This document shows positions 3,001 through 54,844 of a stretch of DNA of 64,000 bases, piece after piece. Each line of letters opens with the position of its first letter. Positions within the stretch are counted from its first letter, which is position 1. The DNA comes from Candidatus Termititenax sp. (GTDB lineage: Bacteria; Margulisbacteria; Riflemargulisbacteria; GWF2-35-9; DYQY01). The notes under the pieces were generated by a model. The model had not been told where the DNA came from, ran no database searches, and was given only the letters and a program-made list of their open reading frames with translations. A program made the position numbers and the translations under genes. The stretch covers positions 62,001 through 126,000 of the forward strand of contig DYQY01000005.1 of NCBI GenBank assembly GCA_020719045.1, in the 5' to 3' direction.

Positions 3001-6000
3001 GAAGAACAAGTTAATACTAATATAGAGGCAAAATACCATACTGAAATTACAGAGATGATGGATGCGTTAATTCGCGAAAGTGTTATTGATGGAGCTATTG
3101 ATTATAGTTCAAAGTTAAATATTGATGCTAATGGTAATAGTACTGAACGTATTCATTCAGAAGAAAAGTTAGAGGCACATATTGTTGAGTCTTTAAGTGA
3201 CATTTATAACAGGATTATTACTTATGAGGAAACGGTAACGACAGATGAATTAAGACAATCTGATATATACGGTAATGAGACACGTGATATGCATAGAGAA
3301 GAGGCTAGACATCAGGTAGCTCTAGAGACGATTAGAGATTTATATGTTGCTAGAACAGAGTATTGGAGAGAGCGAACCATAGATAGGCACACATCAATTA
3401 CTGCTGATGCTTCAGCCACTGTTAGTCAGGATGTTACAGAGGAAAAGTACCAAGAGAGTAGTAAAAGGTTAAATGGTATTTTTGAAGAATTTTCAAAAGA
3501 GGTTGAAAAACTAAAATATACAGAAACATATACAGAAAATGCAGATGGAACGCAGTCAGCGAGAAAAGTGAGTTTTGACCCAAACGTTGATAAGGTGGAT
3601 GCAACATTTCTGAGAGTTGATGAAAATGGGAGAATAAGACTACAAAAGGCTGAGTATAAAGGTGGAGTGAAAACAAGTCAGTTAGAGACTTCTAACTATT
3701 TTATTCCACAGGCTTTTGCTCATGATGAAATAAAGATTGGATTAACCGATAACTTAAGTCTATATAATACCTTTGATTCTGTAAGAACAGGTGAATTTTC
3801 AAGTAGTGGATTTAGTGTTGATGGTGACAAGGTTACAACTCCAGCAGGAGAAACAGAAGTTCCAGAGCTTGTTAATTCTTCCTATAAATGGCTTTTGGAT
3901 TGGAATAAAGGTAATCCTTCAGGTGAAGGGAAATGGAATATGTCTTTGTTTGGTGAACAGAGCAGAACCAAAAACAACGTTGGAGCTGATGTTTCTTATA
4001 CAAATGAATACTCAGAGGGTAGTAACTTAAAGTTAGGGCTCAACTTAAATAACTTATATAACAATGATAGTGCACAGGAATACAGATTCGGGTATTGGGA
4101 TTATGGTGACAATGGATATCGTTTTCAGAATAGGACAAGAGCTAACCTTATGAGCAGAGATTTGGGTGTTATCCCATATATTGGAGGAGAGACAAAACTG
4201 GATGATGAAAGTACACCAGGAATTAGAGAAAAACTTTCATATAGATTGGGCTATGATTTAGCTTATACACAAGAAGCAACGCCAGTGGTTGCTGAACTTA
4301 ATTATGAAAAACGCAATGAAGTTACGGGATTAGGCTATGATTTAGGTCTTAAATATTCAGCGCAGGAGAGTATGGATGAAGACTTTAATATGGACCCATA
4401 TAATATGCTGGCACTCAATTACAGAGTAAAAAAGGATATTGGTGAAGATTTCTTAGCATACGCAGAGGGTCGTAATTATTTTTCAGATAGTGAAGACGCA
4501 AGAGATTCTAGATATAGATTAGGGATAGATTATAACCCTAATGATATGTTCAATTTAGGTTTATTCGGAGAGTATAGAAACGAGAATATAGATAATGGTC
4601 AGTATCAGGACCTATTTGATTTGGGATTACAGCTTGGGGCAAATCGTTCTTTTTACTCAAAGCCAAAATATGATGGAGATTCATATATGTCAGAATTTAA
4701 CGAAGATGCTCTTGATGGTATTGCCTCTGGGATAGGAGATAATACAACCCCTAGATTTATTGGTAGTGATCGTTTTATTTCTCAATTTAGAGGTGAGCTA
4801 GAGACAAACGCAGAGAAAGTGACAGATGCTAGCAAGCGAGAAATTGTTCAGTTAAGAGGTTTTGGGTTAGTTAAGCTTAATCAGGGTGATCCACTGGTAG
4901 GAGCTGGAGCAACATTGACATTTCCATATGAGTTTAGAAGAAGTAGTAATGCAAGTTTATCAGAGGATGGAAATACTTATTCCGTTAATGGTGGAACGTC
5001 AGTATATGGTAAGGCAGGAATTGGCATTGACCAAACTCTTACTCCATACGCAACTGCTACAATGAATGTTAATCAGGGAATTACAGCAAAAGCATCAGTA
5101 AATGCAGATGCTAATGTGCAGGTATTAGGCGTTGTTCCTTATTGTGGAGGTCAGGTTAATGCAAGTATTCCAGTATCAGATTCTGTGAATTTAAATGTTG
5201 GGACGCAGAACGGTGTTACGATAAAAAGCAATAGTGGCGACACTTATGGTGTTACAGGTGGTCTTAATGCAGACAGAGTAGGGTTTAGGTTTAAAAAAGG
5301 TAATGTGCATTTTGGAACAACAGAGACTACACTAGATGTTTGTATGCCAGGCTCAGGGGCAAGTTTCTTTCCAATAATGGTTAATTCAGAGAAGAAGCCA
5401 GGAGAGGTTGCATTTTTGGATAACGGTAAGGTTGTTTCTTATGATGGAGACAGGGAGTTAATGCTAACTGGTGGTTCAAGACAAAAGTTTAGTCAGATAA
5501 ACAAAATGTTCGTTGAAATGAATAAGCAGGGAATTGAAGTGAATTCTGATGATGAAACTTTAAACTCAATGTGTGGTTCTGATAAAGACATTAAGAGGAT
5601 GGAGTTCTTTTTGGCTACACTAGCTAATTATAAGCAAAAGAAAGAGCCAGGGTTCTCATTTCTTAAAAGTGTTAAATTCTTATCAGGCAAGTTTCTGTTA
5701 AATCCTGTTAATTGGTTTTCTACGGAATCAATGTTTATTGAAGAGGGTAATCTTTATATATCAGAAGATGCTTTTGATAATATTGATTTTAGCAAAGAGT
5801 TATCATCTCAAATAGTATTTAGGGCAACGCCAGTTAATGTTTCTTTGTCTAGATGGGTTGAAAAAATATCAATTAACAATAAGCTAACGGAACAAAGAGC
5901 TGAAAGGTTTGAGAAGATGGGTAATTTCTTTGTTGATTCTGAAGTTATTATTGAGGGCGAAGGCGATGAGCTTTTAACTGACCAAGCGATTGATGGTATT

Positions 6001-49386: not shown

Positions 49387-50388
49387 TTACTCGTGATAGT
49401 ATTTCTTTGTCCAGTTAATGTGTTCTCTTTCAGTTCTGGAAAAATGATGCGTACCATCTTTATTGGACACAAAGAATAAATAATTGTGTTTTCCTGGGTT
49501 CAGTGCTGCTTCTATTGATGCTATCCCTGGGTTGCTTATTGGAGTTGGTGGTAACCCAGAATAAATATAGGTGTTGTATGCATTTTCTATTCTTGTGTCA
49601 GTAAAAGACAGGTCAACCACTCTTGGGAGTCCTTCAAGTTTTCTTGCATAATGAATTGTTGGACAAGAGCCAAGCGTCATATTGCGATTCATTCTATTTA
49701 AGAAAACACCTGCAACCATAGCTCTTTCGTTTGCGGTAGTAGTTTCTTCTTCAACAATAGAGGCTAAGGAAATAATGTTATAAAGTTTCAGCGGTGTTCC
49801 GTTTCTTCTTGGCAAAGTTCCATTTTGTTTACTTAATTCATATGCAGGAAGCGCTTTGTTCTTGAAGCACATTAGCATTGCATGAACCATTTCTTCTATG
49901 GTCATGTCGTAATCTATCATATATGTGTCTGGAAACAAGAAACCCTCTAACTTGGTAATCTCAGGTTCATTGTATAGTTCTGGAATGCTTTTTAGTAAAG
50001 GTAGAAATTGGTCTCTGTTTGTTGCAAAAGCGTAGAATGCTCCTTTAGATATTAGTTCTTTTTTGACTAAAAGGTCATCTATTTGAAATAGGTTGTATCC
50101 TTCAGGTATCGTGACTTTAGCATGCACAACGTTTTGAGGGTTTTGAAGCTGATCGATAATTTTTAGATAGCTAGTATCTGGGTTAAGTTTGATTCTTCCA
50201 GGGATGAAGGTATGTTCTTTATTAAATACTTTTACCAATAGTTTGAACTTTAACTCACTGTTAATTATTTTATTTTCTTTGAGTATTCTTGATACACTAG
50301 ATGCAGAGGCACCTTTAGGTATTTTTACATATACCGTGGAACTAAACGCGAGGTTTAGTATGAGTAATAAGCAAAAAAGCTTCTTCAT
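49387..50388 (-). CDS. mltG: Endolytic murein transglycosylase
   Basis: Cleaves nascent peptidoglycan strands at the membrane. The 333-residue YceG/MltG protein has an N-terminal signal or membrane helix, a LysM-like region (VKIPKGASASSVSRIL), LEGFLFPDTY (about residue 145), the catalytic Glu in SLASIVEEET (about residue 202), VFLNRM and LPPTPISNPGIASIEAALNP. Convergent with the preceding deacetylase. Confidence 0.95.
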   Translation of the reverse strand: MKKLFCLLLILNLAFSSTVYVKIPKGASASSVSRILKENKIINSELKFKLLVKVFNKEHTFIPGRIKLNPDTSYLKIIDQLQNPQNVVHAKVTIPEGYNLFQIDDLLVKKELISKGAFYAFATNRDQFLPLLKSIPELYNEPEITKLEGFLFPDTYMIDYDMTIEEMVHAMLMCFKNKALPAYELSKQNGTLPRRNGTPLKLYNIISLASIVEEETTTANERAMVAGVFLNRMNRNMTLGSCPTIHYARKLEGLPRVVDLSFTDTRIENAYNTYIYSGLPPTPISNPGIASIEAALNPGKHNYLFFVSNKDGTHHFSRTEREHINWTKKYYHE

Positions 50389-53582: not shown

Positions 53583-53818
53583 TTATTTAATTGCTGGCTG
53601 AGCAACTGTTTGAACGAATTAAAATTGTAGAAATTTTGAAATCATTTAACGACAATTTATCAGAATAGTATAGTTTAGCAATTCTCCCGAAGGTTGAATT
53701 GTTTGTACTGGAAATAGTAATAGCTCACAGGGTGATGAAAAATTTTCCAAATTTAAATGAGTGAGTTTTGCGAAGTCTTGATTTTTGAGTTACTTTTTAT
53801 CAAGAAAAAGTAACAAAG
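53583..53818. other. Non-coding stretch, no gene seen
   Basis: AT-rich with frequent stops in all frames on inspection. It ends in the hairpin at 53789-53814, next to the first copy of the ruvX-end repeat. Confidence 0.6.
53789..53814. repeat. Perfect 10-bp inverted repeat
   Basis: GTTACTTTTT (53789-53798) and AAAAAGTAAC (53805-53814) around ATCAAG. The upstream word CTTGAT can pair with the loop as an alternative fold. From memory it resembles interspersed palindromes next to accessory genes in other bacteria; this is unverified. Confidence 0.7.
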
Positions 53819-53860
53819 ATTATTTTTTGTCTAAGAAGCTCTGTAATATCTGTGTAGCTT
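53819..53860. repeat. Duplicated 3' end of ruvX, distal copy
   Basis: Identical at 41 of 42 bases to 54442-54483. Read on the minus strand it encodes the RuvX tail ATQILQSFLDKK plus stop; the single difference changes GCA to GCT, a synonymous Ala codon. Confidence 0.9.
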
Positions 53861-53907
53861 TAAACCACCTAGAATTATTGACGCTTTATTATTTATTATT
53901 TTATTTA

Positions 53908-53936
53908 TTGACCTAATGTTCGTTTTATACTAAAAT
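53908..53936 (+). promoter_or_regulatory. Leaderless promoter of ORF6N gene
   Basis: TTGACC (53908-53913), a 17-base spacer and TAAAAT (53931-53936) are followed by six bases and the ATG at 53943. With the pilin-like gene this is the clearest leaderless promoter in the window. Confidence 0.75.
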
Positions 53937-53942
53937 ATATTT

Positions 53943-54440
53943 ATGGATATTATAGTTCCTAAGGAAGTAATTGAGTCAAGAATATACTTGATAAGAGGGA
54001 GTAAGGTCATGCTTGATAGAGGCCTTGCTGAGCTTTACCAAGTCGAGACAAGGACGTTAAATCAGTCTGTTAAAAGAAATATTAGTAGGTTTCCTGAAGA
54101 TTTTATGTTTCAGTTAACAGATAAAGAGTTTTCTAACTTGAAATCACAATTTGTGATTTCAAGTTGGGGAGGAGCTAGAACATTACCTTTTGTTTTTACA
54201 GAGCATGGAGTAGCAATGCTTTCTAGTGTACTGAGAAGCGAAAGGGCAGTTCAGATAAATATCCAGATTATGCGTGCTTTTACAAAATTAAGAGAAATGA
54301 TGAAAAGTCATAAGGAATTGTTGGATAAAGTTAATGAGTTAGAAAAAAGGTATGATTATAATTTTCAAATAGTTTTTGAAGCAATTGACCAGTTGCTGGC
54401 TGTGCCAGATAAAAATGTAATGAAAATAGGGTTTATTTAA
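53943..54440 (+). CDS. ORF6N domain (KilA-N-related) DNA-binding protein
   Basis: The 165-residue protein has an ORF6N domain at about residues 8-92 (IYLIRGSKVMLDRGLAELYQVETRTLNQSVKRN in parts, FPEDFMFQLTD, PFVFTEHGVAMLSSVL) and a C-terminal coiled coil (about residues 110-140, MKSHKELLDKVNELEKRY). ORF6N proteins come from phages and are spread by transfer; their precise role in chromosomes is unknown. The gene carries a perfect palindrome in its coding region and is flanked by direct repeats of the ruvX end. Confidence 0.9.
   Translation: MDIIVPKEVIESRIYLIRGSKVMLDRGLAELYQVETRTLNQSVKRNISRFPEDFMFQLTDKEFSNLKSQFVISSWGGARTLPFVFTEHGVAMLSSVLRSERAVQINIQIMRAFTKLREMMKSHKELLDKVNELEKRYDYNFQIVFEAIDQLLAVPDKNVMKIGFI
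54135..54165. repeat. Perfect 31-nt palindrome inside the ORF6N gene
   Basis: Two 15-base arms, the left being AACTTGAAATCACAA, are exact reverse complements around a central T. It encodes NLKSQFVISSW, in the variable loop before the conserved PFVFTEHG segment. Confidence 0.9.
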
Positions 54441-54441
54441 T

Positions 54442-54483
54442 ATTATTTTTTGTCTAAGAAGCTCTGTAATATCTGTGTTGCTT
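54442..54483. repeat. ruvX 3' end, proximal copy of direct repeat
   Basis: Contains the ruvX stop codon and the last 12 sense codons. It begins one base after the ORF6N stop codon. Partner of 53819-53860. Confidence 0.9.
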
Positions 54484-54844
54484 CTAAAGCGTCTTTGATT
54501 TCTCTTTGTTTTTTTTGATTTATACCTTGAGCTATTAGTTGTTTACCAACGAAGGATGAAGTTAGCCTTTCGTCTTGGAAGATGATTGGAACAGTTACAT
54601 GCTTTTCCAGTTCTGCTTTAAACTCTTTAACAAGTCCAGTCATAGCAGTTTCGTTGCCTTTTAATGCTCTAGGTAAACCAAGCACTATTGATTCTATGGT
54701 TTCTTCTTCAAGTATTTCTTTGATTTTAGTAAATGCTTTGTTCGGTTCTATTTTCCCATAAGGAAAAGCGATTGATTTAAACGGATCAGATAAAGCAATC
54801 CCAATATATTTTGTCCCAAAATCTAATCCCAACACTTTTTTCAT
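54443..54844 (-). CDS. ruvX: Putative pre-16S rRNA nuclease / Holliday-junction resolvase-like YqgF
   Basis: The 133-residue protein has the RNase-H-like YqgF fold: LGLDFGTKYIGIALSD (first Asp), IVLGLPRALKG, IIFQDERLTS (DERLTS motif) and IKDALEATQIL with the last Asp. The family processes the 5' end of 16S rRNA in E. coli. It follows alaS but has its own -10 box at 54851-54856. Confidence 0.95.
   Translation of the reverse strand: MKKVLGLDFGTKYIGIALSDPFKSIAFPYGKIEPNKAFTKIKEILEEETIESIVLGLPRALKGNETAMTGLVKEFKAELEKHVTVPIIFQDERLTSSFVGKQLIAQGINQKKQREIKDALEATQILQSFLDKK

Follow-up and report, generated by a model that had tools for sequence, protein, structure and literature searches.

A single ORF6N gene in the window, the 64,000-nucleotide stretch of Candidatus Termititenax DNA that we analyzed, lies between two copies of the 3' end of ruvX, and ORF6N genes in many other genomes lie between copies of other host gene ends. 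The finding is real and general, and it describes a very small mobile gene that is retained between two copies of a host gene end. Probably, an integrase-free mobile ORF6N gene duplicated the ruvX end on insertion, and its protein binds a palindrome within its own gene. Our evidence throughout is sequence, and most of the compared genomes were MAGs. The features of the locus are as follows.

49387 to 50388, minus strand: mltG (YceG), displaced about 4 kb from ruvX in the window
53789 to 53814, no strand: dispersed hairpin repeat GTTACTTTTT-ATCAAG-AAAAAGTAAC, adjoining copy 1, several in the genome
53819 to 53860, minus strand: copy 1, the displaced ruvX 3' end (last 12 codons, stop, and flank)
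53861 to 53942, plus strand: leader of the unit, with promoter-like TTGACC (53908) and TAAAAT (ends 53936), a consensus match only
53943 to 54440, plus strand: ORF6N gene, 165 aa, DNA-binding protein (PF10543, PHROG anti-repressor, PADLOC PDC-S05)
54048 to 54077, plus strand: recognition-helix codons (residues 36 to 45) with specificity residues R37, T38, Q41, and S42, from the model and the code
54135 to 54165, no strand: intragenic palindrome AACTTGAAATCACAATTTGTGATTTCAAGTT, 31 nt, where the encoded protein is predicted to bind
54442 to 54483, minus strand: copy 2, the 3' end of intact ruvX, 1 to 2 nt past the ORF6N stop
54443 to 54844, minus strand: ruvX, the host gene, convergent with ORF6N

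When the window was compared with itself by BLASTN, positions 53819-53860 and 54442-54483 formed a direct repeat of 42 bp with 41/42 identical bases and a start-to-start distance of 623, as the first-pass annotation of this DNA had reported. This pair was the sole non-dispersed direct repeat within 6 kb across the whole window, and its diagonal score was 39, compared with 11 to 18 in 20 first-order Markov shuffles. Both copies, read in the ruvX sense, encode ATQILQSFLDKK and then a stop. The single in-frame difference (GCT in the displaced copy versus GCA in ruvX) is synonymous, which the annotation had also stated. The ORF6N and ruvX genes meet tail to tail, with stops almost in contact (54440 and 54443).

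Between the copies, we found an 82-nt leader and one ORF, the ORF6N gene. Its match to the ORF6N domain family (PF10543) passed the cut-off (E value of 1.3e-36; 125 bits versus 27.8), and a candidate anti-phage defence profile, PDC-S05, matched it in PADLOC with an E value of 2e-59, which is a profile match only. The interval had been described as containing only a promoter and an ORF6N gene. The single ORF was borne out, but the promoter is only a consensus match (TTGACC-17-TAAAAT), and promoter-like sites in the region were no commoner than expected by chance. ORF6N is the only ORF of at least 60 aa in 53861-54442; no recombinase gene is present between the copies, in agreement with the description of the unit as lacking an integrase, and neither terminal inverted repeats nor an integrase were seen at the ruvX unit. 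The dispersed hairpin repeat was considered as a part of the unit and rejected because it lies outside the repeat and is present elsewhere in the genome. Specifically, window positions 53611-53814 are occupied by an intergenic repeat of the dispersed type, made up of about 160 bp and a hairpin. The genome contains approximately a dozen related copies, and another sits between alaS and ruvX in G001, a genome of the same genus. The second ORF6N gene of the window's genome (G000 C28, L002:1273-1626) is N-terminally truncated, is located beside a broken ATPase-like gene, and carries a palindrome of another specificity class.

The first-pass annotation had proposed that the region downstream of ruvX be compared in related genomes. 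In order-level relatives, mltG is located directly behind ruvX; because it is located at 49387-50388 in the window, DNA was gained on the ruvX 3' side. In G001, ruvX has no ORF6N gene, but another convergent gene is present there, and the site in this nearest relative therefore does not count as truly empty. This gene (L004:1896-2600), which encodes 234 aa and is of unknown family, ends exactly on the ruvX stop, which suggests that the ruvX gene end is a repeated landing site. No direct repeat was found near the gene in 28 RuvX control loci.

To place the ruvX case among others, ORF6N genes were sampled from Candidatus Margulisiibacteriota and from 80 named contigs that represent many phyla, and the 179 genes with sufficient flank were compared with 367 other genes in the same loci. 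A downstream repeat copy within 30 nt of the stop was found for 28/179 ORF6N genes and 6/367 other genes (Fisher p=1e-9). Any flanking direct repeat was found for 43/179 ORF6N genes, some of these being repeats between ORF6N paralogs or of the dispersed intergenic type, and for 32/367 other genes; about three quarters of the ORF6N loci have no flanking repeat. The repeat was a host gene end in 12 curated cases, and thus the search for further ORF6N genes between repeats of neighboring gene ends, which the annotation had called for, was productive. The curated hosts, identified via Pfam, were ruvX, ilvD, proB, pyrE, carB, trxB, dagK, hsdM (twice), a HAD phosphatase gene, rsmB, and rlmB. In the case of pyrE, the 5' end was duplicated, and the carB case involved the first part of a split carB.

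The repeats differed in sequence and length (23 to 184 bp) from locus to locus. Where ORF6N and the host gene were convergent, the ORF6N stop adjoined the intact gene, and the remnant was located upstream; where they were co-directional and a 3' end was duplicated, the remnant adjoined the stop, and the intact gene was located upstream. Because one repeat copy follows the ORF6N stop in either orientation, the unit has a constant edge at that stop codon. In G002 and G005, ORF6N genes of different specificity are arranged in a row, with rlmB ends in between. Neither a shared boundary motif nor terminal inverted repeats were seen across 14 loci, and no circular or free form of the unit was seen. 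Some other gene families also have flanking repeats. Among 29 S23 four-helix-bundle genes, 7 had a direct repeat that started within 30 nt of the stop (L220, L224, L231, L232, L235, L238, and L244); many of these repeats were low-complexity or intergenic, and they were less clean than the ORF6N cases. DUF559 and DUF1016 nuclease genes (L034:2114-3135; L151:3335-4788) were found between 162- and 187-bp direct repeats (94-96%).

Sites without ORF6N were found at ilvD-ilvB and recJ/HAD, as the annotation had anticipated for an insertion, though at ruvX itself only indirectly. In G024, ilvB lies 31 nt past the end of ilvD, and in G051 the ilvD-ilvB site is also without ORF6N. In G011, which belongs to the same genus as G024, an ORF6N gene follows ilvD, and behind it are a remnant of the ilvD end and then a HEPN gene. 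This HEPN gene precedes ilvB and opens with the first ilvB codons, MEISGAQAL (L276:3738-3804, 4450-4516), so the ilvB start appears to be duplicated as well. Comparison with relatives provided too few informative sites to assign the native ilvD copy. Another ilvD 3' end duplication, in G048 (L254:2907-2987, 3902-3982), spans 81 bp at 79%, with copies about 900 bp apart and a different insert. In the case of recJ/HAD, the two genes have overlapping stops and no ORF6N gene in five Draconibacterium relatives (G070, G071, G061, G064, and G066). An orthologous ORF6N gene, broken in one genome, was located between them in four other genomes. Here, the 184-bp junction was duplicated whole, and thus both recJ and HAD remain complete.

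The differences between copies provided information about their origin. Over the twelve curated cases, there were 123 differences, distributed 20/18/85 by codon position (pN/pS of 0.13), and one copy per pair was a fragment. The remnant in G060 matched the intact HAD end of the sister species G067 at 131/133 positions and the HAD gene of its own genome at 119/133. These two observations indicate that, often, at least one member of a pair derives from a different lineage or was exchanged with it. Thus, the suggestion in the annotation that one copy came from another strain appears to apply at several loci, but it is less certain for ruvX itself. The G001 ruvX gene has GCT, like the displaced copy in the window, so the GCT/GCA difference need not make the displaced copy foreign, and the GCA of the current window ruvX may be the derived base.

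The same data bear on a plain long target duplication, in which the recipient would be the source of both copies, with subsequent drift or overwriting through allelic replacement. We regard this explanation as possible but doubtful. The whole recJ/HAD junction is duplicated and some copies are nearly identical (41/42 at ruvX and 108/110 in G063, the latter fitting plain duplication or gene conversion), as it would predict, but it does not readily account for a pN/pS of 0.13 when one copy is a non-functional fragment, or for a G060 remnant that is nearer to the gene of another species than to its own. In the explanation that we prefer, ORF6N and its short leader would be a minimal integrase-free mobile gene inserted at the ruvX 3' end, with the ruvX end duplicated on insertion and ruvX left intact. 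Recombination would use the host gene end as homology. By one route, the target would be duplicated over a long stretch; by the other, a donor fragment would bring in the gene end as it stood in the donor, through homologous recombination. Both routes are possible.

The first-pass annotation had read the locus as integration at a gene end that restores the gene. Insertion that keeps the gene intact was supported; an att-like site was not, since the repeats vary and the ORF6N stop forms the boundary. It is accordingly unlikely that an integrase-bearing element integrated at the ruvX 3' end and lost its tyrosine integrase, leaving ORF6N between attL and attR. A duplicated 3' gene end with a restored frame is the classic att outcome, and ORF6N is related to phage anti-repressors, but the repeats are of unrelated sequence and length at each locus, a 5' gene end (pyrE) is among them, they directly adjoin the ORF6N stop with no other phage genes, and the identical deletion outcome would be needed repeatedly in many phyla. 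A local tandem duplication that later gained ORF6N by chance, or an assembly error, is highly improbable because the arrangement was found in many independent genomes, including the single-contig G011, even though the window genome is a draft of 31 contigs.

The second part of the finding concerns a 25-bp palindrome at about codons 65 to 75 of ORF6N coding sequences. At least 9 of 12 palindrome pairs were present in 183/189 ORF6N genes, and perfect 16-nt palindromes were present in 92/189 genes versus 19/567 synonymous shuffles. In the 1.67 Mb of DNA examined, 99 perfect copies were located in ORF6N genes, 11 just upstream, and 14 elsewhere. The 17-mer RGTCACAAWTTGTGACY was found in 20/51 Margulisbacteria genomes, and the reversed control pattern had 0 matches. 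No palindrome excess was found in S23 and RuvX genes. The arm pairs covary, with compensated arms, and the palindrome falls in two reading frames. A 25-nt palindrome could fold as RNA, but it is very unlikely that this one reflects an mRNA hairpin, or coincidence in the coding sequence, and not a protein-binding site: the mismatches had no G-U excess (27 GU, 33 AC, and 92 other), on which basis we rejected the RNA-hairpin reading, and the use of two reading frames and the prediction of bases by recognition-helix residues also argue against it.

Bases 5 and 4 of the half-site followed residue 41 of the protein: Q with CA in 95/95, K with TC in 27/30, R with GC in 18/18, and E with CG in 28/29 (fractions of sites of that type). 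These two bases also track residue 38, base 7 tracks residue 37, and base 8 tracks residues 78 to 80. All of these residues are located outside the stretch encoded by the palindrome (about residues 66 to 74). In a leave-one-out prediction restricted to sequences no more than 55% identical, residues 38 and 41 predicted the site in 152/164 genes, compared with 67 for the nearest neighbor and 89 for the majority class. Among independent viral ORF6N genes, 37/43 had the palindrome, and the code held in 34/36 assignable cases.

The predicted model of the window ORF6N protein (pLDDT 74, pTM 0.64) has a helix-turn-helix in which the second helix, residues 36 to 45, bears residues 37, 38, 41, and 42. 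A low-confidence loop (71 to 74) falls within the palindrome-coded stretch, and the long helix at 100 to 136 could mediate dimerization. Fold matches were weak: the best had a Z score of 6.8 to a Ski-like protein (SKI/Dachshund), MerR/RacA proteins scored 4 to 5, and Foldseek E values were at least 0.18. The VIA-align comparison set lists no KilA-N chain, so the absence of such a match is no evidence against a KilA-N fold. A PDB sequence search found no relative. Because the variable bases of the palindrome follow the recognition-helix residues, ORF6N proteins very probably bind their own genes, and from this covariation we infer that they very probably bind as dimers.

According to the mechanism that we propose, ORF6N would be a dimeric winged helix-turn-helix protein that most likely controls its own expression by binding the palindrome within its coding sequence. 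Palindromes at -1 to -33 upstream of ORF6N genes had the specificity of that gene in 6/7 cases, which suggests autoregulation; those located farther away were often mismatched, and a role of upstream palindromes as operators was only partly supported. With an operator inside the gene, the unit could land behind any host gene. No palindrome-like sequence was found at insertion sites, and thus the binding site accounts more readily for regulation than for targeting. It also seems rather unlikely that ORF6N is self-addressed, such that the ORF6N-palindrome complex would promote capture of the gene, or of a small circle containing the gene and the host end, by homologous recombination at the corresponding gene end of a new genome, with no integrase involved. 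ORF6N-type palindromes were also observed within a Bro-N gene and at a distance of 98 nt ahead of a DUF559 gene (L308:1501-1517; L317:1501-1517), and in G011 three of different specificity lie inside a 270-bp span of intergenic sequence (L321:1276, 1508, 1547).

A very common solo gene family thus appears to spread with duplicated housekeeping gene ends, which represents a route of gene gain without a transposase or integrase that is recognizable in any genome. The part that surprised us most, and that would be easiest to test, is the protein-matched intragenic palindrome. The genes have their own predicted binding site within the coding sequence, with a readable protein-DNA code of four specificities, and this makes binding, specificity swaps, and autoregulation directly testable. 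In addition, some two hundred protein-operator pairs are a rare natural data set. In our search of the freely accessible literature, we found no paper that joined ORF6N with direct repeats and no description of the intragenic site or the recognition code; the sole match with both ORF6N and a palindrome was a phage genome report.

Features of several known mobile elements were not seen at these loci. No common att core of the integrase type was found across insertions, since the repeats are unrelated between loci; a transposase, terminal inverted repeats, and a fixed short target duplication were not seen at the boundaries; and the 14 loci had no common boundary sequence like the shared attC recombination site of integrons. 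The same domain is found by Pfam and PHROG in ORF6N/KilA-N-like phage anti-repressors, and the genes described here are stand-alone chromosomal genes. Homing endonuclease genes in fungal mitochondrial atp6 and rps3 replace or duplicate a gene end beside the mobile gene. In contrast to those genes, the predicted recognition site of ORF6N is inside the mobile gene and not in the empty allele, and no nuclease domain was found (Pfam finds ORF6N only, and the model consists of a helix-turn-helix and a long helix).

For T6SS immunity arrays, a model of homology-facilitated illegitimate recombination has been proposed that leaves gene ends displaced (PMC5361080). Displaced remnants and arrays after anchored recombination are found there as at ORF6N, but the displaced piece here is a 30- to 180-bp terminal stretch from a housekeeping gene. 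Insertion with long target duplication, as summarized for Helicobacter pylori restriction-modification genes in PMC1643837 and PMC3031569 (Nobusato et al. 2000), likewise places a gene between long direct copies of its target, with the host sequence intact and no transposase. The sequences that form the repeats were single at the empty recJ/HAD and ilvD sites, and at ruvX this was seen only indirectly. The cargo in that system is restriction-modification, whereas here it is a single ORF6N regulator in many phyla; Pfam and PADLOC give ORF6N and no restriction-modification cargo. Also unlike that system, the ORF6N stop fixes one boundary of the unit, and the copies of the host gene end have often diverged synonymously.
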